Source: Sphaerolaimus hirsutus
Taxonomy: Eukaryota > Nematoda > Chromadorea > Monhysterida > Sphaerolaimidae
DNA length: 64,000 bases
NCBI GenBank assembly: GCA_964036195.1
Contig: OZ038450.1
Coordinates: 17,052,701 to 17,116,700 of the forward strand
Reading direction: 5' to 3'
The position numbers and the translations under genes were made by a program. Shown here in pieces: positions 3-45,916 of this stretch. Position 1 is the stretch's first letter. Each line of letters opens with the position of its first letter. Below the pieces are notes generated by a model. That model was not told where the DNA came from. It did not search any database and saw nothing but the letters and a program-made list of their open reading frames with translations.

Positions 3-2129
3 TGCGAATGTCATCCGGACACGAGGGACGTGCTGGCGGCGATCGGCTTGCCGCCGGGCAGGAAGTGCTCCCCGCTGGTGAACGAGTGCTCGCACGTGCT
101 GTTGAACGATTGCGACAAGGTCCAGGCGCGCTGCATCGACCTGCTCGATGGATACACGTGCGAGTGTAATGAGGTGAGATGTTTCAGCCGATTTGCGTTA
201 AAAATACCTAGTGTATATTTGGATGTGTGCGCTGGCTGCTCACCGATTCAAGGCATCTGTTCACGTTCTACTATATTTGCCCTATATTTTTTATATCTGT
301 GACGGTCTGAGAAATGAATGCATGAATTATCTAACTTGGGTTATGCTAGTGCAGAATAATGGCAAGCATTCACTAAATGAGCTACACTTACGAATGCTCC
401 GCTACAGTATCTATCATCCGTCAACCAACAAAAAATACAGCCCCATTTTTCTCAGGGTTCGCAAGACCTCTCACCAAATGTCTCGTCTCTTCCCGGCCGC
501 AAGTGCGCGCCCCGACTGAACGAGTGCGAGACGCAGTTGAACGACTGTTCCGCGTTCGCGGACTGCATCAATACAATCGATGGACACATTTGCCGGTGCA
601 AAGAGAACTATCATGATCACGATCCGCATAACCCTGGCAGGAGATGCTCGCTAAGTTCGTTTTGGGTTGAGTGCAAATGTGGAGAGTATTTAGTTACCTA
701 TGCATTTGTAAAATGAATGGAAATAATAATGGTATCGTGGCTAGTCGCTAATCTTGTCTTCTGTTCTCTTCTACTGCCAAAGTCTGCCCATCATTTCCTG
801 CTGTACCAGATAAATCCAATTTTTACCACAAAAAGCGCATAAACAATAAAACAACGCTAAACCCTCAGTAATCGACGAGTGCGCGGCTTCAAATTTGAAC
901 GACTGCTCGCGGTACGCCGACTGCATAGACACGCCGGGCGGCTACGAGTGCAGGTGCCGCCTGCCCTATTACGACGTGTCTCCGGATGCGACTAAGACCG
1001 GCCGCATGTGCAGGTAACAGTTGCCAGGTGCCACTTTCAAGTCCTGTAAAATGTAAAATGTCATGTAAACTGTTCAAAGTCATATAATGACAAACGAGTT
1101 TACTATTTTCCAGGCATTTTGACACTTTGCATGGCAATTGACATTTTTGCAGTGTCTGGGTGGGAGTGCCCCAATGTGCCATGTAAAATAACCAAAAAAT
1201 TTGGAATGAATGTAGGTTCAACGAGTGCACAAGGCCGGATATGAATACGTGTCTTGGGCGATTCGGTCAGCGTTGCGTAGACACCGATCAGGGATACGTT
1301 TGCGTTTGCGCCACTGGTTTTTATGACGCTGCTCCAGGTCAAGGGGTCGACAGAAATTGCCTCCGTTCGTTTAACTGGTGATAGAAATGTTGTGCCAGCT
1401 ATTGAATTTATCCGGTTATATCTCTCTGGAATCATCCAAATATTGCGTCCTGTCAAGTAACACATTTGACTAAATAATGTTAGATGATACATAGACCTAA
1501 TCGGTAAACTCTTTACAGGACATAAGAACATTTTCCATAGTATAGTAGCTTACAGGGTATTCAACTAACGTATTTTCTTGAATAATTCGCCTAAGCGGAA
1601 AAATTTTTCGTCAGACATTTTAAAGGGGACTATTCTTGTGGGGAATTATTCAAGGGGGTGAATTATTTTTCCTCTAAATAGTCAAGACTGTTCCTATCAA
1701 GGCGCTTCAAGAAAAATGCATTATTCCCTAAATAACAGGTCGTTTCTGTTCAAATTGGACAAAAGGAAATAAATGATATTTTATGTCTTAAAGGGGACTT
1801 ATTCAGGGGGATTTTTTTCCTCACTAGTCTACCGGGGGACTATTCAGGAGTGGAAATGTTTCAAGGGGGAATTATTCAGGCCAATATGGTAGTTATTTAT
1901 CTGAAATTGGTTTATCCATCTCCTTTTTATCCCACAGCACTGAGCACCTCAACCAGAGCGCCGCCCACCACGAGCACAACCAGGTTACCATCCCACTTGT
2001 TGCCGTGCGGCGCGGCGCTGTTCTGCCGTCGCGACTGGCTGGAAGTGTGCCGTCTCGGTACGACTGGCGCGGCCGAGTGCGTTTGCAGACACGGGTTTGG
2101 TAGACAGGCGAATGAGGGTCCTTGTGTTG
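3..2129 (+). CDS. EGF-module exons (exons 1-5 in window)
   Basis: Five exons (3-173, 456-654, 869-1013, 1216-1364, 1938-2129). They show repeated NEC/DEC...LNDC...C.D...GY.C.C signatures, for example NECSHVLLNDC in the first exon and DECAASNLNDC in the third. The N-D/E-C starts suggest calcium-binding EGF modules. The fifth exon opens with a Ser/Thr/Pro-rich linker and then a cysteine-rich EGF-like unit (FCR...EVC...CVC). Donors of exons 2 and 4 are GTTCGT and that of exon 5 is GTTAGT, unusual in having T at +3, but the phases demand them. Introns: 174-455, 655-868, 1014-1215, 1365-1937. Confidence 0.75.
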
Positions 2130-21769: not shown

Positions 21770-22397
21770 TGATACAAAATAGAGGATAAGCTTTGCTACC
21801 TAACGCCCTGTGCCCTTTGATGTTGACGCCGTAGACCAGATAGCGAACCAAAGCCACTAGGTTAGAGCCCAGAAGTTAGATGGTAAATACGTGCACGTGG
21901 GGGAGCTCCAATAGATGCTTGATGTTCCTATTCTGTAGCCTAAGGGTAGGACTTGGGTTTCAGGATTACTTAGGTTCAGATAAATCTCAACTGCCGTTGC
22001 CCAGGAACTATTCATTCGCTGTCACTCAGAACGAATACAGAAGTAATGGTACTTGATCACACAGCAAGCTACCAGGACTGGATATGAAGCTTCAATCTTG
22101 TTTTGCTCTTTTAGCACTAAATCTCACCGGTCCCGATAGCTAGCCAGCGGCTCCTATTTATACGATGCTTGTAGGCACAACAAAGAAACATTTCACTAAT
22201 GTAGGTCATTTACAACCAAATCGCCTACACACTTTACAGATTATATCAAAGCTGGACTGGTCATTTGCTGTCTGCAAGTCACCAGATGGGTGCTAAACTG
22301 AATCACGCGTTGATACGCTCCAGATGACAGCTGAACGTGAACATGCAGGTAGGTGTGATCCAAAAGTAGTAGGACAGCTGCGTGTAAGAACACAACA
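21770..22397 (-). repeat. 3' LTR
   Basis: 628 bp, identical by eye to the 5' LTR. It would supply the polyadenylation function. I saw no perfect AATAAA in the minus-strand reading. A purine-rich stretch (AGGGAGAA, then one C) lies just upstream on the minus strand and may be the polypurine tract. Confidence 0.95.
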
Positions 22398-24017
22398 GTT
22401 CTCCCTATACTTTTCGACCACTGCCACCTGGCAGTCTATACTGATACAAAAATACCTGGGACTTATTTACTTAGATGGTGAATAAATTTTACAGAGAATC
22501 TTTTTGGTTGATGGAATGAATGAATACTGCCTAAACTTAATATTTGTCAGATCTTGAGAATAATATGGGTATGGGAGAGGCACTTGAATCAAAATCAAAT
22601 CTAAGGAACCAGTAACCATACTTTCCTAAAACACTGGTGAGATTCAGGAAAATAACTTTACACAGTCTTTGGTTATAGCTGGCAAAATAAGGCGAGTCCT
22701 AAATAAACACAATTCCTCTACAAGGCACATTCTTACACAAGATATAATAAGGCACAACACTAAACACAGGTGCAAACATCATCAAGGCACCATAATTGTT
22801 AATGTTTTCAGCATTTTGTTTTTGTAGATTTTTTTTGGATTTTTGGATTTTTTTGTAGAATTTTGAAAATAGTAAAACACTGCAAACTGTAACTTAGCAA
22901 ATAATGATTAAACTATTGTCAAGATGATTTTATGTGATGCTTCCCCTAAAAAAAAACTAGAGCTTTTCCTAAAGCGAACACAAGTAAACTATAATGGACT
23001 TTGACCACACAACTACAACTAATACGGAACTGTGAAGATCAGGTTATCACTACACAAGTCAGCCCTCCTTTTGAAGGCTGCAGCAGATGGGGGTGCCAAA
23101 GGAGTAGTGCTGATTGGCAGGTTCAGATGCTCTTGTCTGGCCATGATGATGGTTTCTGGATCCAACACTTCACCCCGGTTCCTGTCCATTTTGGGTATGG
23201 GGCATGGTGGTTTATGTCCCAAGGGCACTGGTGCAATGTGAACAGTCATTCTGGTGGTCTTGTGAGTTTTGCCACGCGACTTCCTGCTTGTTTCATAGTG
23301 CACCTTGGAAGCAGCCTCACTGAGATAGATAATAAATAAGTGTCAGTTCAAGCCAGACAGCATTGTCAATGATGAAGTTGATGGTGTAGATGGTCGTCCA
23401 GTTGTGGTGTAGTGTAGTTGTTTTGTGCAGAGTGTATGCTGATGGAGTGTGGTAGATTGATAGTGGTCAAATAGTTTACATAGTAGTGTATTAGCATCAT
23501 CATCCTAACTAGTGAAATAAATAAAGGGACACAGAGAAAATAATAATTTTTTTATAAAGCAAAAGGAATACTAAAAAAAAACTGTACACATTGTACTTAA
23601 TAATCATTTTCCAAAAATATGTGGTAAAATTTACCCACACATTTATTGTATTATGAATGGATTTGATGTTTTATTATAAACACCCTTGTTGTTTATAATA
23701 AAATATATTTTTATAAAGTAAAAGTGTATATATTGTGTTTTGTATATAAAAAAATATAAGCAGTGGAAGTACTATTGAGCACAAAGGTTTTTGACCTAGT
23801 CAAATACCTTTGTCCTCCCCAAGGGTTAACTAAAATGCAACAAAATTTTGCATGCACAAAACCAAATTGAACACCACAAAGCAACTCGACGACTATCTAT
23901 CCCATAAATAATACGAACAAAAAGCAAGTGTCGTGCCTCGCACCATTTCCCATCAGGCAAATGTCACAAGTGATGCCATGGATGTAGTCCGGGTGCCACA
24001 TGCCTGCACAGAGGTTC
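22398..24017 (-). other. 3' untranslated region of the retroelement
   Basis: Mostly AT-rich, noncoding in appearance. It contains one minus-strand frame of 94 codons (23303-23019, basic N-terminus, PPCPIPKMDRN) that might be a small accessory protein; evidence is weak. The 3' LTR follows. Confidence 0.5.
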
Positions 24018-24479
24018 TCAAAAACTATTGCCTCCACGTCTTGCCCTGCGCGATGAGCCCACTCCCTGAGGATTCTGAGAGGGGTTGGAAGTATTTCCTA
24101 ACTGCGCTAACACCACATTCATTACATCAGTTTTTATTTCTTGTGCTAACTGTTGGACATTGTTTTTGGCACGTGAATGAGCAGTTTCACGGTGATAGGA
24201 ATCATTTACGCCCAAAATACAATTTCCAGCTTTGTGACTATGAACTTTACACCTAGGACAATACTTTGCATTAGGACAGGCATGCTGTTTATGCCCAGCC
24301 TGACCACACTTATAACAAATGTTCTTAGCATCCAACCTGTATCTCCGCCCCTCTGTGCGAACTGGCGTGCTGCAGTAGGTCGATGGCAAGCGACCCTGCA
24401 TCAGTGTGACATTTGTGTGAATTTTACCTAAGTTTACTTTGTTTACAGGCAAGTATACAGACAACCATCTAAAATGTAC
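24018..24479 (-). CDS. In-frame double CCHC segment past the polyprotein stop
   Basis: Immediately after the TAA (24482-24480) the same frame stays open for about 153 codons to a TGA at 24020-24018. It contains two knuckles, CYKCGQAGHKQHAC and CPRCKVHSHKAGNC (both C-x2-C-x4-H-x4-C), then a basic tail. The segment between the stop and the first Met (24464) also reads as protein-like. It could be reached by stop readthrough, by splicing or from its own start. It may be a second nucleic-acid-binding protein. Confidence 0.7.
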   Translation of the reverse strand, partial: VHFRWLSVYLPVNKVNLGKIHTNVTLMQGRLPSTYCSTPVRTEGRRYRLDAKNICYKCGQAGHKQHACPNAKYCPRCKVHSHKAGNCILGVNDSYHRETAHSRAKNNVQQLAQEIKTDVMNVVLAQLGNTSNPSQNPQGVGSSRRARRGGNSF

Positions 24480-27400
24480 TTAGTCAAATTTGCTCACCAC
24501 AACACGGCGGCCGTGGTGCACCGAGCGAATGAACTGTTCGTGCCTATTGTCCAGTCCACCCACCAGCTCGTCACTGGCCACACCAGTCACAGGCCAGGGC
24601 CTGATGATGGCAGCCGGAGGCTCTATCGGCACCTCGACCGTGGGATGTTCACCCGGGAGCCGATGCACACCGTCCCTGCCCATCCTAGGGTCCAGGCTGA
24701 AATTTTTGTTTTTATTAGAATCTTTCCTACTCAAATGTTTACTTTCAAATTGATCTTTCCTACTCAATTTTCTAACTTCCTCAACAAACCTAATGGAAGG
24801 CGTCTTGAGTGCAATGCACGGCTCCGAATAGAAGTTATCAGACACCGCCTGAAGAAAATTTCTGCCCTTGTGCTCAGTCCAGGGCCTGCCCAAATACAAC
24901 CAATCTGGGCGGTTGTCAAGAGGCGCCACACCAGTGCTAGTGCGTATCCACTGGTGCCTCATGTAGTCGTACTCGTGCGGTAGAAGACAGTGCTGGTGCT
25001 CTAGAGTGTGGTTGGCAAGCTGGGGAACACGGTCCCACTCGGGCACGCCTATCAGAGTGCCATCCCGAGCCACCTGCAAGGGCACAGCCTGGATCACGGC
25101 CAGACCCAAGAACGGCTGAAAAATGTGTGTAGTTTTGTGTGTGATACTATTCAAAACTTCGGTAATTTCTTGTTTACTTTTCTTAGCTTCTTCATCACTC
25201 ATAACTTTGCATATGCGTCTCAAAGGGATGAGTTTTGAAGGCCTGTGTGGCTCCCCTATAGACCCTACATACGCGGCACTGTCTAATACTCGTCGCACCA
25301 CCAATGGACCTATCAGTTTTGGTAAAAATTTTGCGGTCTGTCCTGGTCTAGGTACGATGGGTTGTTTAACATATACTGCGTCGCCTACTTCTAACTTATT
25401 TCGTGGAAATTCTCCCTTTTTCGCTGTTTGTTGTTCATATGTTAATTTATTTCGTTGCGCTAGTTTCCAACTTTGGTAAATAGCTTCTCGCACGTAAGCG
25501 ATCGGACTACCGGAACTACGTAAAGCTAAACTTGGTCTTTGCAAAGCTTCGGGTAGAAACCACAGGAACGGTTTGAACCCGAACACCACCTCGTAACTGC
25601 TCAAACCAAGACTTGCGGAGTACGCAGTGCGTAAAGCTAGCATCATTGTCTGAAGCATGTCCGGCCAATCTTCATGTGCTTTAGCGAACTGGTTTATCAT
25701 AATTCCTAGACTTGTCTTGAAGCGATGGAACTGTTCTACCTTATTTGCTTGCGGATTCGCCAGCAAACATTGCTGATGACCTACTCGAAGAAACTTGAAA
25801 CATTCCTTCAAAGCCAAGAGATTTGAGCCTTGGTCAGAAATGCACATTCTTGGGAATCCGGTGAATGAGAAAACGTGAGTCATCAATGCTTGAGCAATTG
25901 TTGTTGCCTGCAGATCTCTTAACGGAGCTGCGAACGGGTAGTTGGAAAAGGGGCACAAAGCTGTCACCACAGCCTTGTAATCAGCTGTTGAAGAGTTATG
26001 CATGATATTGGAAATGTCAAAATAAAGAACATCAAAGGGGCGCCTTGATTCTGGCAGCTTCCTTTGTTCAGGGACCACCTGTCCCGTTTGTGCTTTATGC
26101 GCGAAGCACCTGGGGCACTTCCTAATGTAATCTACCATGTCTTTGTATGCGTTATGCCAAGTAAAACAGTTCGTCATGCGTTTGTATGATCTCAAGGCGC
26201 CTTGATGGCCTCCCCACCCAGACGCGTGGTGGAGAGCCAGCACGGCTTGTCTCATTTCTTCTGGAACATACAGTAAAAGTGCTTGATCATTTGTCTGCTT
26301 CTTGTCAAAGAAATACAGTAAATTGTCTTCTACTACATACTGTGGTGCTGAAAGAACAACACGTCGAGCCAAATTCGAATCTGTCGGAACTGTACCGTCG
26401 TCTAAGAACTTCATCATGGAGGAACAGAATGGGTTCTCAGCCTGTCCTTTCTTGAATTTTTCTACGACACCATCTTGCTCAAGGAAATCTGAATAATTTT
26501 CCTTATCATAGTCAGAATCTTGTGGCAACTGACTCCTAGCAATTTGATCAGGAGTCAAATTTTTGTTTGGGTCATTTGGAATTATAGTTTTATGGATGTT
26601 TCGTTCTGTATCAGTCACAGTGACTTCAGGGATCATGGTTGAAGGAACAAGATGATCAAAAGAGTCTAGTGTGTCTGAATCGGTGGCGTTGGGCGCACTA
26701 GGCCCAGGGGTATCTGGCACAGTAGGCCACGGTTTTTGACGGTATGTCTTGCTGCGTGTTTCCATAGCCTGCAGCAAATGCTTTTCTACATGAGATTCCA
26801 TTTTCTTTTGTAATTCACAGTTGTCCTTACAATCTTCTCCACATATCTCCATTCTTTCATCATTTAAAACTTCATCAGCTGGATCAGGACGAGTTTCAGG
26901 CTGCTCACTGATGTCTTGATCACAGAAATCACGTGACAAGACATCTGCAGGATTTGTCTTACCAGGGGTGTATTTTATTGTCACGCCTGGGAAAGCGGAT
27001 ATAACAAGTGCCCATCGAGCGATTCTAGGGTTCTGTGCAGTGCTTCTGTCTCTGAGCAGATAACATGCTGCTGCGCAATCTGTGTGAACATCCACCTTGT
27101 AGAAATGAATAATGCTGCGCCAATGGATCAAAGAAGAAACAATGGCCAACATTTCAAAGTCATACGAGGCAAACTTGGATTCACTCTTACTTAGAGTCCG
27201 AGAGTAATAGCCAATGATGTTGTGGCGTTTTTCACAGTCAGCCTTTTGCGACAGAATGCCAGAGATTCCCTTCTTGGAACCGTCTGTGCATAAATCAAAT
27301 TTCTTTTCATAATTTGGTGCAGCTAGGATAGGTGCTTCCATTAACTTTTCTTTCATTAACCGCCATTCCTTATCTGCCTCAGGGGTCCAGACAAATGGTG

Positions 27401-39400: not shown

Positions 39401-42400
39401 GTAAATACTTGTACATATTTAGGTAGGCATTTGTACATAAATATTTACGTATATATATTCTATTTATTGCACTTGTCCCGTAGGAAATTTTTATATAGGT
39501 ATCCCCATAGGGCCATGTGTTGTCGCACATTTTACTCATGGCCGCTGTTGGCATCCTGCCAACATTGCACGTCGGCCCCTTACCTACTCGCGACAACCAT
39601 GGGGAGGTGGAAAGAGACTGTCGGGGGGCGGGCATAAATTTTCGCACGCGCACGCGGCCGATTTTTCTAGTCACAAAATTTTTATTTTCACATTCTATTG
39701 ACTTGTTACATAAGTCATTCCCACACAACCCAGCACACCTGTGCCCTCTTCTTGGCCTTCCTGTTGGTCGGCTAGTTCGTCCAACTCCTCGAGACTGTCT
39801 GACTCGGCGGCGGAGTCGCCCGCGTTGGGCTGTTGCGTCTCGCTCAGTTGTGCGACTGAAATATACAGTAGTCATTTGGTGAGGCGAAAAATTTGAAAAA
39901 TTATTTATTTTATATTTTGCCGTCTCTATTTGCACATTTTCTTCCGTATTTAATTTTTCTTTATCAACTTCCATGTAAATTTCAAATTCAAAATTTATAG
40001 TATCCTTTTCCAATAGTAAAACACAAAATTTTTCGCCTAACCAAATCTCTGTGCGAGCAAGGCTGGCTGTGTGCTGGCCGGCTGGCTGCTCTCCAGCATC
40101 GTCCTGTCGCTCGTGATGGTCGAGCTGCTCGACCCCGTCTCCGTCGGCCTCTTGTGGGTCGAAGTAGGTGGAGTTTTCTTCACGAATTCTGCGTGAGTGG
40201 GTTTCCCATTCATCAATTTTTTTCATGCATAAGGATTGAGCCTTATCCATTTCCCTTTCAGCAGCGCCCTGTTCTTTATCTATTTTTATTAACAAATCTG
40301 TCGTTTTCGACAGTGTTGCTTGTGCTTTAGGTAGTTTTCTTTCTAGCAAACTTCTTTTTACATTTACTAGTAGTTCGGTAGCTCTTTGTAAGTTTTTTTG
40401 CATTCTAGTCACATGCGCTTCTATTCTAGCTATACTTTCTGTGATACGCCGCTCATATTTATTCATTTTCATTTCGAAAGGCGTAGGGCAGGTGTGACAG
40501 ATCGCCGAACTTCTTGCTGTAGAGCAAGTCGGCTGCTCGCAATAAGAAAACCCTGTTTCGGGTTCACATGCACTTTCCATGTGATTAGTGTCTTCAGTAG
40601 GTGTACTGGACGTAGAAGACTTCTCAGAGAGCTGCATTTCTTCCGTTTTTATATTTTCTGGGTTCTGATCTTTTCCACATGTTATAAATTTATTTTTTTG
40701 CTCTTTGAGAAGTTTTATACGGTTATTTTGCCCTTCCCACTTACTCATGCCTTGCGGTAACGCAGTGCCGATGTGTGGATCGGCGCGTACGCGTTTCCGG
40801 CCATGCTCGTGCTGCACGACTTGCTGCAGGTTCGGCATGTCGCTGCTCGAGCCCATTGTAGGTTCTGTATGAGCATACGTGTACACAGGGAATACATTTA
40901 TTTTCTCTGTGTACGAACGCAGCTCACCTTTCTCGCTGTACATGGTGTCGCCGCGCGGCATGGGCGTCCGCATGAAGGGCGAGCCCATGTTCCCGAACGC
41001 GTCGGCGATCTCTGGCATGGGCGAAGCCACGTATTGCGTGTGATATTCTGCGCATTTCACATGAGTAAGTATTTCGAAATATTTTTTTGCCTTGTAACCA
41101 TGGCAACAACTTCCTACTATCTTCCCACCTGGCAATAGTTCAGGCACTGGGTATGGCTCCATGAAGGGCGGCCGTGCGTCGGGTTTGCGCTGGGCGGGCT
41201 TCCCGCTGTACGCGCAGCTCGTCAGCTCGTACACGGGCCTGGAGCCGTTGCCGACGCCCGCCTCGTGTATTGCAGTTGCGTCTGTGAGCGTCATCGAACA
41301 AAAAATGGTAGAATTATTTTTCAATTTTTTTAAGTTCGAAAACACCCACTTTTCCCACTGGTGTAGGTAGCGGAAGCGTGCTGCGCGTACTGTGTGTCCA
41401 GCGGCGTGTACACCGGCCAGTCTATAGGTGTGGTTAGAGATTGAAAGGTTGTAAAAACTTTTTATCAATCTCCAAATACACCTACTTTTTCCTGTCGCGT
41501 GCGCAGCGGCTGCGCGCGACTGCTCAACCGGTTGCGACCCGGGCGGGGGCCACTCTTTGCCGATGGACTGCCTCGTTGGCGGCAGATGCCGCGATGGCGC
41601 CTGGCCTTTGTCCGCCGCCTGCGGCTTGCTCATCATCTTTGCGCCCATCTTGGGCACTGCTGGTCGCTTCTGCACTGCCAGCATCTTCGGCTTTGCAGGG
41701 ACTGCCATTTGTGCAACGGGTATGCCAGTGGCGACATTTGTGCCGCCGCTGACAACTTTTCCAATCCTTGCGGCGAAACTGACGTCATCTGTTTCATTGT
41801 CGTTGACGCCGGCCGCAGCGGCGTTCACATGCTGGGCGCCCTCGTGTCGCACCTCATTAAGGATGGCGAGAAAATCTGCGAAAATGTTGTCTGTTTCATT
41901 TCGCGATTTTGTCAATAGACTTTCTAAAATGTTGTCAGTTTTATTGCATAATTTTGTCAATTGACTTTCCTTTTTATTATGAAAGGTATTATAATCTTTG
42001 CAGAACATGCGCGGCAGTGTGAATAACAAATACTTACGCGGATCTCTTTCGTAATCCGCTTCTAAATACGCTTCCAAGTCAGCAAGTTCTGGAAGCCCTG
42101 GAAGTTCTTCGGCCATGTTTATGATGTCGTGAAACTTATTTGTAAGATAATCTTGTGATTTACTGCGGCTAATTGATAGGCTTAGCGCGAAGTGTGGTAA
42201 TAATATCGTTAAAGTAGCTACCAGTGCAATAGCCGCGCTGCGTGAATGGGCTTGTTTTGTAAGTGACTTTCGGTATATTTTTGCGCTCTTTTTTTTGTGC
42301 GCAGACTCGATATCGCTTTGCGCGATCATCTGTGGCTTTTCAACCGCGCTCGTTGCTTTTTCGTGTTTTGAGACTCTGGTTTTTTTATACGCTCGGGTAG

Positions 42401-44897
42401 GTGTGTTTCGATCATGGCTATGTAGCGGCTCGCCCGCCCATATTTCTCCATTTTCGAACATATTCCTATTCCTGTTTACAGGGCGGAGCGATAGCGTTGC
42501 ACTGCGCCATTCTTTGGCGCAGTGCGCCTGTGCAGAGCGGTCCCATGGCGCTTGACGTTTTCCATGTCGAGCGACAAGGGAAAATAAATGCTGCACGGAC
42601 ATATCATTTTTTTCTTCACTCACTTCTATTCCAGTATTCATTGCCGATAGAGTGTGTGAAATCGCGTTGACGCGTTCTCTATTATTTTGTGTGGCGCCAT
42701 TAGTTCTGGCGCCAGCGCCACACGCTCTGGCGACATGTCCAGTTTGACCGCAATTGTAACATACTCGCGGCGCGGGCGTTGCACTGTTAGCTGATTGTGA
42801 TTGATAAACTTGTGCATTTGCACCGTTAAATTTATTATAGGGCGGGCGCGGGGAATTTGGATTAAATGAACTTCCGTTATAATTGGAAGTTTGGTTTACG
42901 TTTTGGGGTGCCCCCCTTCGGAAAGACGATCCACGCCCCTGTGTGGATATCGAGTTGCCTACCTGTAAGAGGGCCCGACGAAGCTCTGAAGCTTCGTCTC
43001 TAAACTTACTTTCAATTTTATCAATACGTTCCCCACCCCGTTTTACTTCACTTTTTATTTCTTCCAACTTTTCCGCCAAATCAACTTGATTTTGGCGCGT
43101 TTCTTCGCGTTTTTGTGGCATTACAGCGTTTGAAGCTTGTAAAACTTCATGTGGACGCTCTAGTTGACTGAGGGGATCGGGTGCGGCCGTGTTTGTGGGG
43201 CGGCTTTCAGAAAAAGGGCGCCTATCAAATCGCCGTCTACCAACAGGGAAACGGCCGCGGGGCACAAATGTACCTCTTCGATTAATATTGTCCTGCATGC
43301 TAGGACGGCCCTCTGTCACGCCCAGTGTGCGCGCATTTTCTGGGGTAATTTGTACTTCATAAGTACTTAACCGATCCAACAATGTTTCCATTGGTTGGGT
43401 TTGATCGGCTGGCGACAAAGTCCTATAAAACGCTTGTAATTGTGCCGAAATTGAATTTGAAAATAAAATTTTAAAATCTTTTTCGAGCGCCTCTTGGCTT
43501 AGATGAGCAAATGCGGCGGCATGGGTATCTTTTAGGATGTAGTAAAATTCTTTTACAGACTGGTATTTTCCTTGTTTCATACGGGAAACTTGTTCTCGGG
43601 CAGTAAATTGAACGGCTGGATTTTGATAGGTTTGTAAAAATTTCCATTTTAATTTTTCGTAATCAGTCCTAATTTCTATGGGCTGAGTCGAAATCCACCT
43701 AGCACTTTCTCGAGACAATCGGTATGAAAATGCTAGACAATATTTTCTGCGTGGAATAGCTAGCGTGCAGAGGGCCACTTCTAATGTTTTGATCCATACA
43801 GAGGGATTTTGTGTGCCCTGCGACCTGTCCCCTGAAAATAATGGTACTTTTTCAGCTAATGCAGCGAAATATGGCGCTGAAAACGCAATGTCACGTGTAG
43901 AATATGGATTTTCACCCTCCGCAAGTGCCATACTTTTTGCATGCCTAATTTCGATTTCTAGATTTTTTAAACGATGATCTGTTGCGTCGCGAAAATATTC
44001 TATGTGATAATCTCGGTCTTTCATAAATTTTCGCAACAGTGGTCTTTCAGCAAACACCGGGTCTTCATAATCATACGGTTGCATGCACTCTTGATTTTGA
44101 TCAGAGTTTACTAAATCTACATATGGTTCAGTTGGTGCAGAACCGTCTACATTCGTATTTTGGCTTGGTATATCACTAGCGGGCGCGGGCAAATGTGAAA
44201 AGGGGGGTGAGTTGCTAGGGACTGTAATTTGCAGCCCACCTGTATTTTGTTGCGCCTGTGGATCGGCTGATTTTCCTCCTGTTGTCCCAGAATGCGCTGG
44301 GCTCGATTGTGTTTGCTGTGGCGTCATCACTGACGCTGTTGGCGGCGTGCCAGGTGGTGGATTCGCATTTGGTGCTGTCGTAGTGACTGGCGGGGGTGCG
44401 GTACCCGCCGGCGGTGCCGTACCTGTTGGCGGTGACGTGACTGGCGCGGCTGCCGCGCTTCCATCGCCCACCTGTATATTTTGCACAGATGAGTCCGTAT
44501 TTGGAATTTGTAGCGTGGACGTGGTAGGGGGCGCGGTACCATCTGTACCATTTTTTGCTTCTTTCTGTTTGCGTAAAAGTGCCTTTTTTTGGGACTGTAG
44601 GGACTGTATAGTGTAATTTAAGTATCCAAGATGTTCAGACACTTGATTTCTAGTGTCTCGATCAACTTTCCAGCTAGCGACAAGATCCCTTTGATCGGTC
44701 AGTGCCTTTAAGTGATCGTCAATTTGTTCTAAGGTTTTTATTTCGAGTGGGGGTTGTGGTGCATCAGGTATAATTATTCTACCATCTGCATCTAATGGCG
44801 GTGGTACCGGGCCCCCTTGATACTCAGTGTCAGCTGGGGAATGTTCACGCCCAGTAGTCGGTTTTGTCGTGCCTTTTCCAATTGGTTTTGGAGGCAT
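24480..44897 (-). CDS. Giant Gag-X-Env-Pol polyprotein, 6,805 aa
   Basis: One uninterrupted frame from ATG 44897-44895 to TAA at 24482-24480. Order by residue: Pro/Thr-rich N-terminus (1-270), capsid-like region (about 330-510), CCHC knuckle (713-726), about 3,500 residues of unknown and repeat-rich protein, signal-like segment (4232-4268), glycoprotein-like ectodomain, transmembrane helix (4827-4851), a second signal-like segment (4958-4974), protease (DTGAS at 5104), reverse transcriptase (YVDD at 5721), RNase H (TDGS near 5872), integrase (about 6200-6480). No frameshift separates Gag from Pol. A stop-free frame through more than 20 kb, including very AT-rich stretches, is strong evidence of selection for translation. 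Cleavage by its own protease is expected from the class but no sites are identified. Confidence 0.93.
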   Translation of the reverse strand: MPPKPIGKGTTKPTTGREHSPADTEYQGGPVPPPLDADGRIIIPDAPQPPLEIKTLEQIDDHLKALTDQRDLVASWKVDRDTRNQVSEHLGYLNYTIQSLQSQKKALLRKQKEAKNGTDGTAPPTTSTLQIPNTDSSVQNIQVGDGSAAAAPVTSPPTGTAPPAGTAPPPVTTTAPNANPPPGTPPTASVMTPQQTQSSPAHSGTTGGKSADPQAQQNTGGLQITVPSNSPPFSHLPAPASDIPSQNTNVDGSAPTEPYVDLVNSDQNQECMQPYDYEDPVFAERPLLRKFMKDRDYHIEYFRDATDHRLKNLEIEIRHAKSMALAEGENPYSTRDIAFSAPYFAALAEKVPLFSGDRSQGTQNPSVWIKTLEVALCTLAIPRRKYCLAFSYRLSRESARWISTQPIEIRTDYEKLKWKFLQTYQNPAVQFTAREQVSRMKQGKYQSVKEFYYILKDTHAAAFAHLSQEALEKDFKILFSNSISAQLQAFYRTLSPADQTQPMETLLDRLSTYEVQITPENARTLGVTEGRPSMQDNINRRGTFVPRGRFPVGRRRFDRRPFSESRPTNTAAPDPLSQLERPHEVLQASNAVMPQKREETRQNQVDLAEKLEEIKSEVKRGGERIDKIESKFRDEASELRRALLQVGNSISTQGRGSSFRRGAPQNVNQTSNYNGSSFNPNSPRPPYNKFNGANAQVYQSQSANSATPAPRVCYNCGQTGHVARACGAGARTNGATQNNRERVNAISHTLSAMNTGIEVSEEKNDMSVQHLFSLVARHGKRQAPWDRSAQAHCAKEWRSATLSLRPVNRNRNMFENGEIWAGEPLHSHDRNTPTRAYKKTRVSKHEKATSAVEKPQMIAQSDIESAHKKKSAKIYRKSLTKQAHSRSAAIALVATLTILLPHFALSLSISRSKSQDYLTNKFHDIINMAEELPGLPELADLEAYLEADYERDPRKYLLFTLPRMFCKDYNTFHNKKESQLTKLCNKTDNILESLLTKSRNETDNIFADFLAILNEVRHEGAQHVNAAAAGVNDNETDDVSFAARIGKVVSGGTNVATGIPVAQMAVPAKPKMLAVQKRPAVPKMGAKMMSKPQAADKGQAPSRHLPPTRQSIGKEWPPPGSQPVEQSRAAAAHATGKSRCIWRLIKSFYNLSISNHTYRLAGVHAAGHTVRAARFRYLHQWEKWVFSNLKKLKNNSTIFCSMTLTDATAIHEAGVGNGSRPVYELTSCAYSGKPAQRKPDARPPFMEPYPVPELLPGGKIVGSCCHGYKAKKYFEILTHVKCAEYHTQYVASPMPEIADAFGNMGSPFMRTPMPRGDTMYSEKGELRSYTEKINVFPVYTYAHTEPTMGSSSDMPNLQQVVQHEHGRKRVRADPHIGTALPQGMSKWEGQNNRIKLLKEQKNKFITCGKDQNPENIKTEEMQLSEKSSTSSTPTEDTNHMESACEPETGFSYCEQPTCSTARSSAICHTCPTPFEMKMNKYERRITESIARIEAHVTRMQKNLQRATELLVNVKRSLLERKLPKAQATLSKTTDLLIKIDKEQGAAEREMDKAQSLCMKKIDEWETHSRRIREENSTYFDPQEADGDGVEQLDHHERQDDAGEQPAGQHTASLARTEIWLGEKFCVLLLEKDTINFEFEIYMEVDKEKLNTEENVQIETAKYKINNFSNFSPHQMTTVYFSRTTERDATAQRGRLRRRVRQSRGVGRTSRPTGRPRRGHRCAGLCGNDLCNKSIECENKNFVTRKIGRVRVRKFMPAPRQSLSTSPWLSRVGKGPTCNVGRMPTAAMSKMCDNTWPYGDTYIKISYGTSAINRIYIRKYLCTNAYLNMYKYLQINSYPNKPGGGKSRPSLSLDQPVLNGTKNFDRKSIKNGKIMQEMSKSEKYTVNIYSETPVKFKVNRTPRKLNFSEEKLIENKYLFHFVQNKDLRDQILKIPMKTIIKNNIDNLNKNKQSNKMSDIYRKLFGKQNIETKILHQVFTKNKIINTWKLYKIEKQKYFQEILLNIEKQKITPDTSENLLQKKNLKSKSMLTFCPIYWKNKTENVIEFYENSESKITHKENINCKEKYCKEKLSFKNVFYPREIFYPIFWKKINKNIINMTDINQINISDKNRDLLEKYLFENLFTNLREYFCPIFRVRVERKMIKMIDTNKTNINYKENKNFKERYLIEYLFTNFQGHPCPIPWVQIKIKMMTTTDIIKINTSHQESKLEDKYLFPNVFTNFRKYFCPIFWVKVDTNIEKLKENNLSKIIHQENKYLRNKYLTEKLFTNFRETYCPKLWAKIEKFRINMTDITQINTSHKVNKYLKEKHLVENLFTNFRESLHPTLWVKIDKIMINMSNKNKINTTYEENKSLKDKNLFTSLFTNFRESFHPTLWVKVGKIVENMNNINKINTSHEENKNLKYKNLFANLYTNLQETLCPNFWKKINENMENVYENSQDNTRNENIQHFKEYLFENSFNNFREAWCPRLWVKIDKNRLKVLENNLLKIALRLKQNFDKNSCCQIRRYFKFTELINLKINFENMELNGRSGDKLDRRHELQREEGRMASESAPPSNHFPPKTQKTEIFPGKRQYFAKLPPAPRHHGCPLCPVLTRAGNSQKARHGDLCDDENISKMENVKLNRNPPISHCKVSENKHSYCKMSENMSLHHTISESKDFVKLNTYKSPRVYSLLVKWINIKEPEKYASKWHQNALKFSCIHLLTVRWINFRKYKIFTPKTQRKICNVYKSDDESIKHYIPLINNHGIDKFDRERLNNVTPTGPPFPTPQFEKNLENTEINIQDLQFSTLRITYEKGRENELGNYLTPKVPPVSTPQDRENLEIEFCEIVLSNFVHYKITGNSHVKYCVTKVLGRLTPILPPKIPPQIEKNFNKNFDRKFRSSTQFNEVNVSCRVRTQLKSLTPGEILTPLFPPKNKEYLSENANKYSDFQIFKSSKSEVVKCRARIQLKILTPHLHPSPLFATPHFQKNLKFTENNYLIIKTDTESTLNVKCRIEIQKFALTPRFPPFSTLSPPSLTKSKNFNSKPKKIPRSPCCPTRIWSTSPPDWQNLVEIQIWNGAKSRRSRTIGNRRQSGQTATSSGENHVDSVEMCCRTFFHVKTCVGKRLCRKKWKRIGVKRENKKATINVANELLIECGVPQSAVKAFDPEIKRKIFGPKKSGAYEAPENQKQSEDSGTLYLPNALGIPETSFELCKVGRCNLTPGTGHRDLIVNLESFQQLATCQHISFKEVRTRARGWNRTGTLSEKSVNPKMGQVQIVGSTSDNENSTSTDNFDQSTAQLTPKCKHEMSRKPEIEPAIKIHMKWIIQLTYQNHFVFVNSLNKNVRKNLKFQNLKAFKYLYGKLLQCTTRCLMTRHVQCHKSPKGHLKCKNNSFLSNLDEKILFQEHNRKHAFEHQNSHHATEHASIIRHPPANLQSITRHLSTISQCISRHPSAELQGIARHFVRCLLKQKCLRQLLEIKLCPRHQIFTKLDNEPEFRDKFFGRMDTSLMNAMGTLSQFATRHIRVNRHLPAVARGIIRHQCRNRTIVFLGCRENSWCDVRLSSGVCKCAIRPRLAHQTSVWVKHHSIDLLHGKDKKSNYTNYLLWRSAEFMPFCKVSRVMTSKISDKSKKENDLSMDISNLTSNMTSNRISHNVNNILTQYKTNDNSISDFTSDKTDDKKRLKAAKARQKRMCPPRTLRAKMYRQQVVRLRRQKNIEKKRREKGKPEDRVMPFSTDPFRNPPSYDCRKNIDTSLKSYPADSPRKVTSTMTHPALQFEHQIGYPDGQFEIKLWCKNLIKSWCKTLVSLLLPCRQWTLSMHGLISAASPHGCPRNVEWAYRSLSIGQLVENKNKLTKVKIAVTSLAAVPPVFGTKAPVYHKVVGLAEHYYGQQYTEIACQLGGCYINTIRVATSNLDNTVVRRPLHGFPIREFSVNMLNAENRLSSTVAADCYYWAFGIMNAMAKGNDALLAGGFSFVKNMFRYPPIQVLLILLSPTDLIAHAPVFQGRLLMVCTRHQYFFLARPEDIRCCTEVSAVFAFTMLDVVEFITKVHVLRMCPVNKALAYDALMRELFESLNEVWVSLALKQQYSDEIKNRSKHSLYGKLSDEIKSHSKHSLYRKLSDEIKNHSKHRFKSQVITYIHKKNTGLMDSEFVPDAVTVTVNRLKIEMCAEMIARELRWRVDRAISMVYYEGIPVDPTPDEGLTVDHLKDLATAHRRVVVMNNEFHIRSALQDMPDEYLAPQPVVETSPIQNRVSLITIVLVFAYAFPKGSTVLTILFGLLTLTTIGNALAEPLKVQMCPRPIGAWYIALPEVPQCNILTTTALPATRQHPVVDVAVNVYTTRRKPLTSNATFCQTRRHEITACTNMLFSEYIYEYHDEFIETPMVICTKLIQAVLDQKFNEYQFQQLQPQVWSTMIPINIVFPTWNDCTSQHTDNYIVTFGTVSTFNHQQIMTDLESSPACLASTGVCTSKKGTLIWNPDSLSAASCPYEFVGTYIGKMHNKTILLPTEQSAFTIKGGPVNLHCVSQAVYLTNQGPLIAILQSNDSTQALCKMMFDAECSKFTKVTDPEFWQGKMNPNTATQHQYIYQVLSHQAHENFETLRQQICALTRNDALMVRAIAHLSPIAAARIIVGDWAVNAEFAGDVLSLSHCHTILADHVYLSHRIGDTCYNLLPVRVNNRTYFKMPASPDLVEMASRVACSSIRPPVYRNNNGTYFALKDGSMVGVQVHHTPAFVNPQFIQQQVVFNKSLGLSGLEMDNAIIYSNLQYLHMQQIDATKKIDRLIHYTSLFSVNNDRTASMLHGHGLEQVVTHAGELLLNASGRAINTEYDMIHMITSSAVPRTIRGPIQFLLNLMWIIVGFIAILGGCYLFIRYQWVRDVIGQICRWILHMVLRVKATALNTWRTVQTFVSQDEIPEPDHSEVQRPNTLDLPPRVKYSGLQRFPSIRFSPELLREIDGNIDHDPEREVLASMRGRIRTAPIILAVLALMISGASAQETNANHWKWNLSICMRIWSYMTNLGFSLLCVIGFQLIQRCFSNSTTAETAEPSLGEVQDLQEYSITNLPLSEYGIGTFPAEIETTTETTKFNHEKLFAMTQVRTDHGDPGITMTVPGSVKGKQIKCIIDTGASISCIHKRVVDALNLVYKSTAISISVADGTDLTPVGVCNISVHLDGVPFAVSALILDGISCDMYIGFKTLRQWGDFRVTFYRDNENKNLNIGEIKFLSGKTIRFNIPQDSAVQHTLIMYTGNRYKISPLSFTSVKIFAPDITPDFLALVLKDKKLEKNYVCAPIEKMMRVYRVKIYPTLIDIERSFDQERKSYVLSGSIPVFNPNRSDITIPSDRPLAKVKQIGAPMHRALGILPDKEVLLSAPAKPNNLGKDPTPMYLTGHTTQDGNQIPVILTPQYGSHLKKLVISGKECQERIGGWLDSMKTIRPKENWSHMHINEKSLLTLFPEAAADAPPGSGKERLCSLKKEADETAAKRDTPNAVATVTVMPKGEPENRLGLPNMAKPLVPQLTIQERHEIIRRDANFKDTVLSPSQKEEFLDMLLKYHSVFVLELADRGECSALTADIRLKDESHPGFIARPYPVSHFEQQVIDHWIVRQISLGLAEFGVSRFSSPVFLVRKPSAEPEEIPSIKNWRTVFDLRKINSLCKLEQGTVAPLKQLLERLLLGVVWSSFDGLSAYDMISLSSNSRDLFAISTARGILRFKSLPQGAATSTGIFSLAMTVMLLGIDHTLCYVDDICTVSATIPQHVHDVQEVLARFQKYRFRIALRKTVFAARRIKMLGQYISAEGREVDKSKIEAICKLPPPKDKSGVRSFLGLCNWHRSWIHNFAANTRSLNKLLTTKDNAPFVWTPEADKEWRLMKEKLMEAPILAAPNYEKKFDLCTDGSKKGISGILSQKADCEKRHNIIGYYSRTLSKSESKFASYDFEMLAIVSSLIHWRSIIHFYKVDVHTDCAAACYLLRDRSTAQNPRIARWALVISAFPGVTIKYTPGKTNPADVLSRDFCDQDISEQPETRPDPADEVLNDERMEICGEDCKDNCELQKKMESHVEKHLLQAMETRSKTYRQKPWPTVPDTPGPSAPNATDSDTLDSFDHLVPSTMIPEVTVTDTERNIHKTIIPNDPNKNLTPDQIARSQLPQDSDYDKENYSDFLEQDGVVEKFKKGQAENPFCSSMMKFLDDGTVPTDSNLARRVVLSAPQYVVEDNLLYFFDKKQTNDQALLLYVPEEMRQAVLALHHASGWGGHQGALRSYKRMTNCFTWHNAYKDMVDYIRKCPRCFAHKAQTGQVVPEQRKLPESRRPFDVLYFDISNIMHNSSTADYKAVVTALCPFSNYPFAAPLRDLQATTIAQALMTHVFSFTGFPRMCISDQGSNLLALKECFKFLRVGHQQCLLANPQANKVEQFHRFKTSLGIMINQFAKAHEDWPDMLQTMMLALRTAYSASLGLSSYEVVFGFKPFLWFLPEALQRPSLALRSSGSPIAYVREAIYQSWKLAQRNKLTYEQQTAKKGEFPRNKLEVGDAVYVKQPIVPRPGQTAKFLPKLIGPLVVRRVLDSAAYVGSIGEPHRPSKLIPLRRICKVMSDEEAKKSKQEITEVLNSITHKTTHIFQPFLGLAVIQAVPLQVARDGTLIGVPEWDRVPQLANHTLEHQHCLLPHEYDYMRHQWIRTSTGVAPLDNRPDWLYLGRPWTEHKGRNFLQAVSDNFYSEPCIALKTPSIRFVEEVRKLSRKDQFESKHLSRKDSNKNKNFSLDPRMGRDGVHRLPGEHPTVEVPIEPPAAIIRPWPVTGVASDELVGGLDNRHEQFIRSVHHGRRVVVSKFD
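25300..26300 (-). CDS. Integrase domain
   Basis: Residues about 6200-6535. The zinc-binding HHCC part starts at HHASGWGGHQG (6223) and ends CPRCFAHK. The catalytic triad is Asp 6294 (YFDIS), Asp 6355 (ISDQGSN) and Glu 6388 (KVEQFH). The second spacing is 32 residues, a little shorter than the usual 35. A GPY/F-like module (LPKLIGPLVVRRVL) follows near 6529. All required residues are present. Confidence 0.9.
26930..27305 (-). CDS. RNase H domain
   Basis: Residues about 5865-5990. FDLCTDGSKKGISGILSQ supplies the first Asp, YDFEMLAIVSSL the Glu, and VHTDCAAACYLL the next Asp. It closes with KTNPADVLSRD. This is the usual Ty3/gypsy RNase H placed directly after the polymerase. Confidence 0.9.
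27440..28250 (-). CDS. Reverse transcriptase domain
   Basis: Residues about 5550-5820. It contains NWRTVFDLRKINSLCK, the LPQGAATSTGIF motif (family LPQG) and LCYVDDICTV with the YVDD catalytic pair at 5721-5724. It continues through RIKMLGQYISAEG and the VRSFLGLCNWHRSWI connector. All are standard for Ty3/gypsy polymerases, and no damage is seen. Confidence 0.95.
29328..29660 (-). CDS. Retroelement aspartic protease
   Basis: Residues about 5080-5190. The active-site motif CIIDTGASISCI has Asp 5104. The family dimerises and cuts the polyprotein. A conserved hydrophobic-Gly segment follows (DMYIGFKTLRQWG). No missing residue noticed. Confidence 0.88.
29920..30026 (-). other. Second signal-like segment followed by a membrane helix
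   Basis: Residues 4958-4974 (PIILAVLALMISGASAQ) look like a cleavable signal with ASA^Q. About 16 residues later a second hydrophobic stretch (4990-5011, LGFSLLCVIGFQLI) follows. This small hairpin sits between the Env-like part and the protease and might separate lumenal from cytosolic parts of the polyprotein. Confidence 0.5.
30300..32204 (-). CDS. Env-like glycoprotein region
   Basis: Residues about 4232-4865. A hydrophobic signal-like stretch ends in GNALAEP, a plausible signal-peptidase site. It is followed by about 560 residues with many Cys and at least seven N-x-S/T sites, then a helix IQFLLNLMWIIVGFIAILGG (4827-4846) and a basic tail. This is the layout of a class of retroelement envelope proteins; no family was assigned. 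Unusually it lies between Gag and Pol instead of after Pol. It could be made by cleavage of the polyprotein or from a spliced RNA; neither is shown by the sequence. Confidence 0.65.
32220..33385 (-). CDS. Second nested exon cluster, unknown folded domain
   Basis: Exon-like segments 33385-33053, 32977-32759 and 32527 onward, all with phase-1 junctions (acceptor TTGCAG before 33385; donor GTGGGT after 33053; acceptor AACAG before 32977; donor GTGAGT after 32759; acceptor CACAG before 32527). The two introns are 75 and 231 nt, both multiples of three. The exons are GC-richer and look like a compact protein of roughly 280 residues with aromatic and Cys residues (GLAEHYYGQQYTEIACQLG; TMLDVVEFITKVHVLRMC). 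The polyprotein frame and the spliced frame are the same here, so splicing would only delete the intron-encoded residues. Upstream, a basic segment (KKRLKAAKARQKRM) near 33930 may be an earlier exon. Confidence 0.55.
32565..32710 (-). repeat. Tandem repeat D, 3 x 48 bp (16 aa)
   Basis: Three nearly identical units reading SDEIKNHSKHSLYRKL, residues about 4063-4111. They fall entirely inside a predicted 231-nt (3 x 77) intron running from 32758 to 32528. Confidence 0.85.
34300..34870 (-). repeat. Tandem protein repeat C, I-x-RH motif
   Basis: Residues about 3343-3533. Short units carry SIIRHPPANLQSITRH-type motifs with recurring Arg-His pairs, about 10-17 residues apart, and several Cys. The DNA core is GATGTCTA-type on the plus strand. 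The His/Cys content hints at metal binding but the spacing fits no finger I know. Confidence 0.6.
35830..36660 (-). repeat. Tandem protein repeat B, proline-rich, ~45-60 aa
   Basis: Residues about 2747-3023. Copies contain LTP-x-x-PP-x-STP, a KNLE-like linker and a VKCR-x-RIQLK core. At DNA level each unit pairs GGCGTCAGA with a nearby complementary TCTGGCGCGAC, so each copy can form a hairpin, and each carries a G run on the plus strand. No known domain. Confidence 0.7.
37440..38830 (-). repeat. Tandem protein repeat A, ~55-60 aa, AT-rich
   Basis: Residues about 2023-2487. Around ten diverged copies share the core LFTNFRES-x-x-P-x-LWVK, a hydrophobic segment, and a Lys/Asn-rich linker with INKINTSHEENK. 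A cysteine-proline pair (CPIFW, CPKLW) occurs in many copies. Base composition is very AT-rich, yet no stop occurs in this frame. No known repeat family is recognised. Confidence 0.75.
39695..42116 (-). CDS. Nested spliced reading frame inside the polyprotein (accessory protein, unknown)
   Basis: Exon-like segments on the minus strand: 42116-42038 (starts ATG, residue 928 of the polyprotein), 41875-41486, 41421-41359, 41281-41129, 41047-40928, 40864-40745, and a later one 39855-39695. The donors include two perfect GTAAGT sites (42037 and 40744). All introns are phase 1 and the chain keeps its phase through six exons. Intron lengths are 162, 64, 77, 81 and 63. The 64- and 77-nt introns sit either side of an exon read in a different frame from the polyprotein, and together they restore it. 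The acceptor before 39855 also opens an acidic frame differing from the polyprotein frame. GC content of the exons is far above that of the introns. Product: no domain recognised; proline-rich, with an acidic C-terminal part. How the exon ending at 40745 connects to 39855 is unresolved. Confidence 0.6.
42170..42243 (-). other. Hydrophobic segment between Gag and the nested frame
   Basis: Residues about 885-908 (IALVATLTILLPHFALSLSI) form a membrane- or signal-like helix just upstream of the nested ATG at 42116. It could anchor the following part of the polyprotein or act as an internal signal. Confidence 0.45.
42618..44897 (-). CDS. Gag region of the polyprotein
   Basis: Residues 1 to about 760. 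A low-complexity Pro/Thr/Ala N-terminus is followed by a helical capsid-like domain around residues 330-510 with the retrotransposon-Gag pattern (PLFSGDRSQ, then SVWIKTLE, then TAREQVSRMKQGKYQSVKEF). Next is a basic, Gly/Arg-rich linker and a coiled-coil-prone segment (QVDLAEKLEEIKSEVKRGGE). It ends in the knuckle CYNCGQTGHVARAC (C-x2-C-x4-H-x4-C, residues 713-726), which binds RNA in this family. Confidence 0.88.
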
Positions 44898-45288
44898 TTT
44901 TCAAAATTTTATTTTTTCAAAATAAATCAGTATATTTGCACTTGCGTCACAGCAGTGGGTGCAATCTATACTTTTTCTGTGTTCAATTTCTTTTTTCTAT
45001 TGCAAAGCAATCAGCCCTGCTAAAAGCAGTCTCACCGTAAGTGTACGGATTTTTCCTACTGCGTAAACGCAGTCTGCCCAGAACCTTTATTTCAAGGTCT
45101 GTAAAGGGATTGTATACCCTCTGCTGTCACGCAAATGCGTTCCGAGCCTTTTCCAGCGCTCAAATTCAAATAAAAAAATGAAAAAAATAAAAAAATTTTT
45201 TACGCGAAACTCACTTTTTCAGCGCTCCTGGCTGTTTTTGAAAAACGTACCTGGCGATAGCGGCAGTGGGATTTCGCACGATCACCAC
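44898..45288 (-). other. 5' leader of the retroelement
   Basis: 391 bp between the 5' LTR and the first ATG of the polyprotein. It holds the candidate primer-binding site and presumably packaging signals. No open frame noted. Repeated AAACGCA/TTTGCG motifs are present. Confidence 0.5.
45270..45287 (-). promoter_or_regulatory. Candidate tRNA primer-binding site
   Basis: One base after the 5' LTR, the minus strand reads TGGTGATCGTGCGAAATC. It starts with the TGG expected opposite a tRNA CCA end. I could not assign the tRNA. Confidence 0.4.
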
Positions 45289-45916
45289 TGATACAAAATA
45301 GAGGATAAGCTTTGCTACCTAACGCCCTGTGCCCTTTGATGTTGACGCCGTAGACCAGATAGCGAACCAAAGCCACTAGGTTAGAGCCCAGAAGTTAGAT
45401 GGTAAATACGTGCACGTGGGGGAGCTCCAATAGATGCTTGATGTTCCTATTCTGTAGCCTAAGGGTAGGACTTGGGTTTCAGGATTACTTAGGTTCAGAT
45501 AAATCTCAACTGCCGTTGCCCAGGAACTATTCATTCGCTGTCACTCAGAACGAATACAGAAGTAATGGTACTTGATCACACAGCAAGCTACCAGGACTGG
45601 ATATGAAGCTTCAATCTTGTTTTGCTCTTTTAGCACTAAATCTCACCGGTCCCGATAGCTAGCCAGCGGCTCCTATTTATACGATGCTTGTAGGCACAAC
45701 AAAGAAACATTTCACTAATGTAGGTCATTTACAACCAAATCGCCTACACACTTTACAGATTATATCAAAGCTGGACTGGTCATTTGCTGTCTGCAAGTCA
45801 CCAGATGGGTGCTAAACTGAATCACGCGTTGATACGCTCCAGATGACAGCTGAACGTGAACATGCAGGTAGGTGTGATCCAAAAGTAGTAGGACAGCTGC
45901 GTGTAAGAACACAACA
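45289..45916 (-). repeat. 5' LTR
   Basis: 628 bp, beginning TGTTGTGTTCTTACACGC and ending in ATTTTGTATCA on the minus strand, so the canonical TG...CA termini are present. A line-by-line comparison with 21770-22397 found no mismatch. It should supply the promoter for the minus-strand transcript. Confidence 0.95.
45673..45681 (-). promoter_or_regulatory. TATA box in the 5' LTR
   Basis: On the minus strand the LTR reads CGTATAAATAGGAGCC, a consensus TATA element. It lies about 235 bp from the start of the LTR. It predicts transcription starting about 30 bp downstream, near 45650. The same box exists in the 3' LTR at 22154-22162. Confidence 0.6.

Follow-up and report, generated by a model that had tools for sequence, protein, structure and literature searches.

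The size of giant retroelements is commonly put down to genes that they have captured. Among elements with long terminal repeats (LTRs), the Ogre elements of plants are also giant, with a size that comes mostly from LTR length and with no in-frame envelope (Env) mentioned in the part of the source drawn on here, while the Burro elements of planarians are giant Gypsy-like elements that carry an Env in frame before Pol (PMC6431247). In C. elegans the LTR retrotransposon Cer1 has an extra protein reported to serve the export of unspliced RNA (PMC10309623). Here we describe a retroelement in a stretch of 64,000 nucleotides of Sphaerolaimus hirsutus DNA (assembly GCA_964036195.1, contig OZ038450.1, positions 17,052,701 to 17,116,700; this whole stretch is the window, and coordinates refer to it) in which Gag, a long middle, a class III fusion-glycoprotein Env, protease (PR), reverse transcriptase (RT), RNase H (RH) and integrase (IN) follow one another in a single open reading frame (ORF) of 6,805 codons. 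The explanation that we favour, at somewhat better than even confidence as a whole, is that this is a recently active, envelope-bearing element of Ty3/gypsy type that would make Gag, spacer, Env and Pol as one chain, with the spacer open but neutral in its amino acids and kept open for the Env and Pol lying downstream. The novelty lies in the length of the frame, in another copy that is likewise open and, most of all, in a spacer that is open yet looks neutral.

With Burro the element has in common an internal region of more than 20 kb, one giant Gag-Pol ORF, accessory frames, and the order of N-terminal Gag, extra region, in-frame mononegavirus-like Env and PR-RT-RH-IN, its ORF being longer at 6,805 residues (aa) compared with 4,873 and 5,140 aa (PMC6431247; all Burro comparisons draw on part of this paper). 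Likewise the PR-RT-RH-IN order is shared with Ty3 and other Ty3/gypsy elements, with a frame about 4.4 times the 1,547-residue Ty3 chain and with the Env inside it. The original prediction of a giant element of this type is upheld by the LTRs, the order of the Pol domains and the Ty3-like RT, for which Ty3 was the best solved relative (E 1e-46, ahead of retroviral RTs). As in Metaviridae, the LTRs have TG...CA ends and are flanked by a target duplication in the 4-6 bp range (AGTG, 4 bp, at the window copy). The LTR pair shows no difference over 628 bp and TATAAA occurs at LTR position 236. In the leader, TGG one base past the LTR is a possible primer site (by eye; no tRNA matched) and AAAGTGAGT is donor-like (by eye). 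The predicted giant frame between paired LTRs, with Gag and Pol at opposite ends, was likewise recovered in its coordinates, its LTRs and its domain matches, the latter from Pfam run on overlapping pieces of the 6,805-aa translation (Table 1).

The ORF is the sole frame in the window of at least 200 aa with an ATG, GTG or TTG start. Between aa 1301 and 3830 the reading frame has no stop, compared with 199 and 213 stops in the other two forward frames; at the stop rate of those frames the probability of this is about 10^-93, and a chance origin of the frame is excluded. Searching the window's own assembly (348 Mb, 762 contigs) with the LTR gave at least 17 matches, this and the related counts being lower bounds; four of these matches bound a pair of full-length copies as their LTRs. 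The second copy (G000:C1:28182755-28206664; 23,910 bp) lies on the same contig, 11 Mb from the window copy, with LTRs identical to each other and the target duplication TTTC. As no LTR position differs within either, both copies are young. The search yielded one further full-length copy with a matching open frame, and the stops that might have run through its middle were not found, there being none in frame over 6,699 aligned codons (a further 106 codons of the window copy face gaps, and the count excludes 22 codons that are insertions in copy 2). Inside the ORF the copies differ by nine indels, every one of a length divisible by three (48, 15, 6, 12, 90, 51, 3, 6 and 144 nt), compared with none of eight outside it.

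Selection between the two copies was assessed from the proportions of nonsynonymous and synonymous differences per site (pN and pS). Constraint on the amino acids is strong in Gag, Env and the enzymes, with pN/pS of 0.02 for Gag (aa 1-880; 1 nonsynonymous and 13 synonymous changes), 0.03 for PR-RT-RH (2 and 19), 0.02 for IN (aa 6051-6560; 2 and 29) and 0.08 for Env (aa 4229-4900; 4 and 16). The spacer at aa 1801-3540 carries 671 differences, near-equal over the three codon positions (211/221/239), with a pS of 0.18 (elsewhere 0 to 0.08) and a pN/pS of 0.69. Simulations in which the window sequence was mutated with the observed spectrum and only stops were discarded gave the spacer a pN/pS of 0.73 (0.63-0.87), with about 30 nonsense changes discarded in the process compared with none seen in the real copies. 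Env and IN fell below their simulated neutral ranges; such ranges exist for spacer, Env and IN, and none for Gag, PR-RT-RH, aa 1301-1800 or aa 3831-4228. Other parts had too few changes to judge, namely aa 881-1300 (0.31), 1301-1800 (0.50), 3541-3830 (0.28), 3831-4228 (0.46) and the C-tail (1.15; 4 nonsynonymous and 1 synonymous), with no changes at aa 4901-5079. In the comparison between copies, put forward in the original prediction as a test of the frame, the frame stays open over all aligned codons, with amino acids conserved in Gag, Env and the enzymes and changing as if neutral in the spacer.

Base composition by codon position, compared with a stop-purged random model, gave z values of 29 for Gag, 9 for Env, 15 for Pol and 10 for the C-tail, and of 1.9, 2.8, 0.6 and 2.1 for four stretches of aa 1301-3830. 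Codon periodicity in 200-codon windows exceeded z 3 in four of four windows in Gag, seven of ten in Env-Pol, none of twelve in aa 1301-3830 and two of nineteen in the flanks, a tally that omits eight of the 34 ORF windows, which straddle a boundary or belong to another segment (z 0.0, 5.2, 3.3, 3.9, 10.7, 3.9, 1.8 and 10.4). Tandem-repeat periods were divisible by three in 12 of 16 arrays in the ORF, including all seven that score at least 50; of 67 flank arrays, 22 had such a period (p 0.0026). Relative to the window copy, copy 2 is short of one 144-nt unit and carries an additional unit of 48 nt, and together with the periods in multiples of three this makes it seem that the middle grows and shrinks by in-frame units. 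Among repeat units within the window copy pN/pS was 0.86 (0.68-1.10) for the 48-aa family, where frame-shifted controls gave 1.02 and 0.90 compared with 0.87 in frame, and 0.98 (0.81-1.14) for the 'LTP' family, a weak comparison near saturation. Protein self-BLAST of the middle gave no off-diagonal match; offset scoring of the middle, by contrast, revealed repeats above shuffles.

The Env, which is absent from the original prediction and sits between the middle and Pol, was identified by a Pfam profile of class III fusion glycoproteins (Monjiviricetes_fusion) well above its curated cut-off (58.5 bits versus 27, E 4.1e-16). Glycoprotein_B overlaps this match below its own cut-off (34.5 versus 43), and among proteins of solved structure the gB chains of herpesviruses give weak matches (E 0.08 to 0.8). 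About 555 residues ahead of Pol are assigned to an Env ectodomain of this known class, 267 of them covered by the profile. The single-sequence structure model of Env was poor (predicted local distance difference test, pLDDT, 36), and none of 3,887 candidates passed when the protein database was searched with aa 4201-5100.

In the proposed mechanism Gag, spacer, Env and Pol would be made as one chain, with a middle enlarged by in-frame duplication and insertion and a spacer that would stay open solely for the passage of ribosomes to the Env and Pol beyond it. Further steps are put forward more cautiously. The chain could be threaded through the membrane of the endoplasmic reticulum (ER) by hydrophobic segments at aa 887-910, 4234-4269, 4825-4854, 4955-4973 and 4994-5017, such that Gag would be cytosolic, with ER entry after Gag, return, re-entry before Env and a Pol that ends in the cytosol. 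Host signal peptidase might then release Gag and Env, three of the segments ending in signal-peptidase-like motifs (ALS, ALA and ASA, by eye), with the element's own protease maturing Pol. An excess of sequons in aa 911-1800 fits the part expected to be luminal. Ribosomes lost along the long spacer might in addition make Env and Pol scarcer than Gag, there being about 3,300 codons from Gag to Env and 4,700 from Gag to RT with neither frameshift nor stop between. Flavivirus polyproteins, each a single chain that passes through the ER membrane and is cleaved by signal peptidase together with a protease of the virus, serve here as a likeness for the model only, with no homology claimed.

As regards the difference between the copies, we prefer the reading that recombination exchanged the spacer, perhaps as two or more tracts, with that of a relative that had diverged. 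On the Env side, divergence per 100 bases jumps from 4-5% to 16-28%. Synonymous divergence in the spacer exceeds that of the adjoining parts severalfold, and the mutation spectrum is unbiased with 63% transitions, ruling out hypermutation of the spacer. It is less probable, at well under even odds, that the spacer diverged through a locally raised mutation rate or repeat turnover and not by recombination with another lineage. This alternative is favoured by the tandem repeats in the spacer, by the 144- and 48-nt indels that each equal one repeat unit, and by the rather gradual fading of divergence on the Gag side (14, 9, 7, 3, 8, 7, 7, 7, 5, 4, 3 and 0 per 100), whereas the Env-side step and the unbiased spectrum argue against it, as does high divergence outside the repeats (for example a pS of 0.25 at aa 3023-3390) and a smaller raised block in IN. 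That second block (25270-26269) has 25 differences per 1,000 bases with a pS of 0.08 for IN, and is perhaps another exchange tract.

The likeness to Burro raises the question of whether the element is a true member of that planarian lineage, carried by a flatworm-like host. The same one-frame order and the mononegavirus-like Env speak for membership, which is nevertheless doubtful, since Pfam found in the element's middle none of the MATH, BIR, BCL2, ankyrin and SUMO-like domains of Burro, and no dUTPase of Burro type between PR and RT (aa 5100-5500, E<=5), where the HHpred analysis of the Burro report is more sensitive (PMC6431247). Unlike what is described for Burro, the element has short LTRs and a spacer that looks neutral, and the copies found here, at least two of full length besides about eight further LTR loci, compare with thousands for Burro (PMC6431247). 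As such the element is taken to resemble Burro and is not filed as Burro, whose Pol lies outside the tree described below. Among the matches listed in a search of literature titles and the starts of abstracts, none, Burro apart, was seen to describe this architecture.

It is rather improbable that the middle encodes real, fast-evolving proteins under weak constraint, such as disordered or host-interaction proteins comparable to the extra domains of Burro, which occupy the same place in the parts of that report drawn on (PMC6431247). Coding-type periodicity in aa 905-1300 and 3831-4228, the sequons of aa 911-1800 and a spacer pN/pS slightly below 1 would be consistent with such proteins, as would matches below cut-off to Fib_alpha (aa 1465-1532, E 5e-4), an overlapping DUF7203 (E 6e-4) and TusA (about aa 2175-2207, E 8e-4). 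Against this, the spacer ratio equals that of the simulation that is neutral except for stops, change is near-equal at the codon positions, none of the twelve windows is periodic, and Pfam found nothing above curated cut-off in aa 890-1666 and 2523-4228 (E<=5) or aa 1667-2522 (E<=0.1). Captured genes in the spacer were set aside on this ground, the Pfam matches being only the weak ones named. The structure model of aa 3832-4196 was too poor for use (pLDDT 33). Because they combine coding-type periodicity with no match above cut-off, aa ~905-1300 and 3831-4228 may be new protein, and to this extent the suggestion that the bulk of the element is new protein between Gag and Pol survives; for the rest, part of that region is an Env of known class and aa ~1801-3540 appear to be neutral filler. 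An assembly error or a chance frame has next to no probability, being refuted within this assembly by the open copy 2, by ORF indels that are all multiples of three and by the absence of stops.

Several observations weigh against our preferred explanation of a one-chain polyprotein with a neutral spacer. The topology model uses five of eleven hydrophobic stretches, the last of its segments having been found only at a looser threshold, as were six further stretches, and the unused aa 3963-3983 and 4004-4031 would alter the topology if membrane-spanning; these omissions lowered our confidence slightly, to the level given above. Three of the four middle stretches are slightly above the stop-purged null (z 1.9, 2.8 and 2.1). 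In six sub-stretches of the spacer the ratios fall within the simulated ranges without exceeding the mean in any of them, such that weak constraint on the spacer is possible. Sequons in aa 911-1800 exceed shuffles (12 compared with 5.8, standard deviation 2.2), a hint that this part may be a true luminal domain. The comparison of copies rests on one full-length pair, with an alignment that may be out of register in places across the repeats and with the 144-nt indel at the seam of two separately aligned pieces.

Database searches with RT and Pol recovered relatives of Gypsy type, as the original prediction implied, the named matches of Pol being largely Gypsy-type Pols, and left the placement unsure. 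The tree was built by a quick method from 115 of the 120 best matches (after a length filter) among 511 found. Identity of the Pol to these 115 relatives is at most 30% (up to 34% over shorter local stretches) and its end branch is the longest among the 116 rows, making its place in the tree unsure; the tree joins it with P0110, which was flagged as two long branches meeting. A protein search for giant relatives scored the 2,261 candidates sharing most words and found none within limits of about 1,900-6,000 aa, which would miss a protein of 6,805 aa. Its sole match was P0127, a 2,967-aa Cordylochernes protein, which was set aside as it reads as an annotation fusing three ordinary Gypsy Pols. 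No relatives were found among the viral and prokaryote contigs searched. Integrases usually have a D-35-E spacing; the integrase core of the element (25791-26033) matches rve weakly and its final catalytic spacing resembles D-32-E by eye.

Behind the ORF lie two small frames with acceptor-like sites (by eye), and with the donor-like site in the leader these may be spliced accessory exons. The knuckle of the 153-codon frame scored 20.0 bits in Pfam, 0.8 below cut-off, and for this frame the extra protein of Cer1 is a possible parallel (PMC10309623). Ten flank frames (of 117 frames) were scanned against Pfam, of which nine gave no match and the tenth, behind the stop codon, matched. Cer1 is much smaller than the element and is not known to have a giant spacer. 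Over 1,000 bp around the zinc-knuckle frame (23770-24769) the two copies have no base difference except for one inserted nucleotide at 24421, which precedes the presumed acceptor.

Table 1. Features of the retroelement in the window, in order of position.
Feature	Position	Strand	Residues or length	Remarks
Whole retroelement	21770-45916	minus	24,147 bp	
3' LTR	21770..22397	minus	628 bp	starts TG, ends CA on minus strand; identical to 5' LTR
Second small 3' frame	23019..23342	minus	107 codons	acceptor-like tctatctcag
153-codon frame	24018..24479	minus	153 codons	directly behind stop; two CCHC-type knuckles (one Pfam, one by eye)
Single open frame	24480..44897	minus	6,805 aa	ATG to stop
Integrase	25791..26267	minus	aa 6211-6369	zinc-binding H2C2; weak rve core (below cut-off)
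RNase H	26991..27389	minus	aa 5837-5969	E 9.7e-25
Reverse transcriptase	27585..28073	minus	aa 5609-5771	YVDD; E 8.1e-18
Aspartic protease	29376..29630	minus	aa 5090-5174	DTG; E 8.2e-9
Two hydrophobic segments	29847..30035	minus	aa 4955-4973, 4994-5017	could return Pol to cytosol (predicted topology)
Env transmembrane segment	30336..30425	minus	aa 4825-4854	
Env	30804..31604	minus	aa 4432-4698	Monjiviricetes_fusion (PF24664)
Hydrophobic hairpin / Env signal peptide	32091..32198	minus	aa 4234-4269	ends NALA|EP; cleavage reading by eye
Region aa 3831-4228	32214..33407	minus	aa 3831-4228	coding-type periodicity z 15.8; GC content at third codon positions 0.59; no match above cut-off
Spacer	34278..39497	minus	aa 1801-3540	hypervariable, open, apparently sequence-neutral
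'LTP' repeats	35832..36644	minus	aa 2752-3022	about six diverged units, five of 46-50 aa, one of 25
48-aa repeats	37422..38861	minus	aa 2013-2492	about ten diverged in-frame units
Region aa 905-1300	40998..42185	minus	aa 905-1300	coding-type periodicity z 6.3; no match above cut-off
Hydrophobic segment after Gag	42168..42239	minus	aa 887-910	signal-peptide-like; cleavage reading by eye
Gag	42720..43727	minus	aa 391-463, 711-726	weak Retrotrans_gag (below cut-off, first range); CCHC zinc knuckle (second range)
Leader	44898..45288	minus	391 nt	no ATG
5' LTR	45289..45916	minus	628 bp	

Besides the two full-length copies, the assembly holds at least eight other LTR loci, comprising three single LTRs (identity 97, 89 and 86%), one split LTR on C3, partial LTRs on C15 and C6, and two loci on C16, in each of which an LTR is accompanied by about 1.06 kb from the 3' region and by fragments of LTR. 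The two C16 loci, L024 and L026 (G000:C16 near 11.37 and 11.09 Mb), are remnants of like make-up 277 kb apart and are perhaps one duplicated locus. No internal coding piece was found in 16 stretches of 10 kb around the eight other LTR loci, two of these stretches having 200 masked bases. Elsewhere in the window, positions 5033-10044 hold a 5-kb satellite-like array of about 116-bp units with higher-order repeats of 145, 205, 257 and 465 bp, and positions 4075-4970 a C-rich 27-bp minisatellite of about 26 + 6 copies together with a 362-bp duplication.

A large share of the excess length of this element seems to be translated filler, selected only for the lack of stops and frameshifts. We tentatively suggest, at somewhat less than even confidence, that 1,740 codons or more, perhaps as many as 2,500, of the essential polyprotein are translated neutral spacer in which only openness is selected, which grows by duplication in frame, is swapped between lineages by recombination and may, through ribosome attrition, set the ratio of Gag to Env-Pol. 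The element adds a further case of an Env inside a Gag-Pol frame, with models of topology and stoichiometry that can be tested. If further copies agree, it would be a natural case of more than 1,000 codons selected for openness alone, and the spacer, if this is true, would be a natural nursery of random-like protein, which bears on the origin of new proteins and on the tolerance of polyproteins to inserts.

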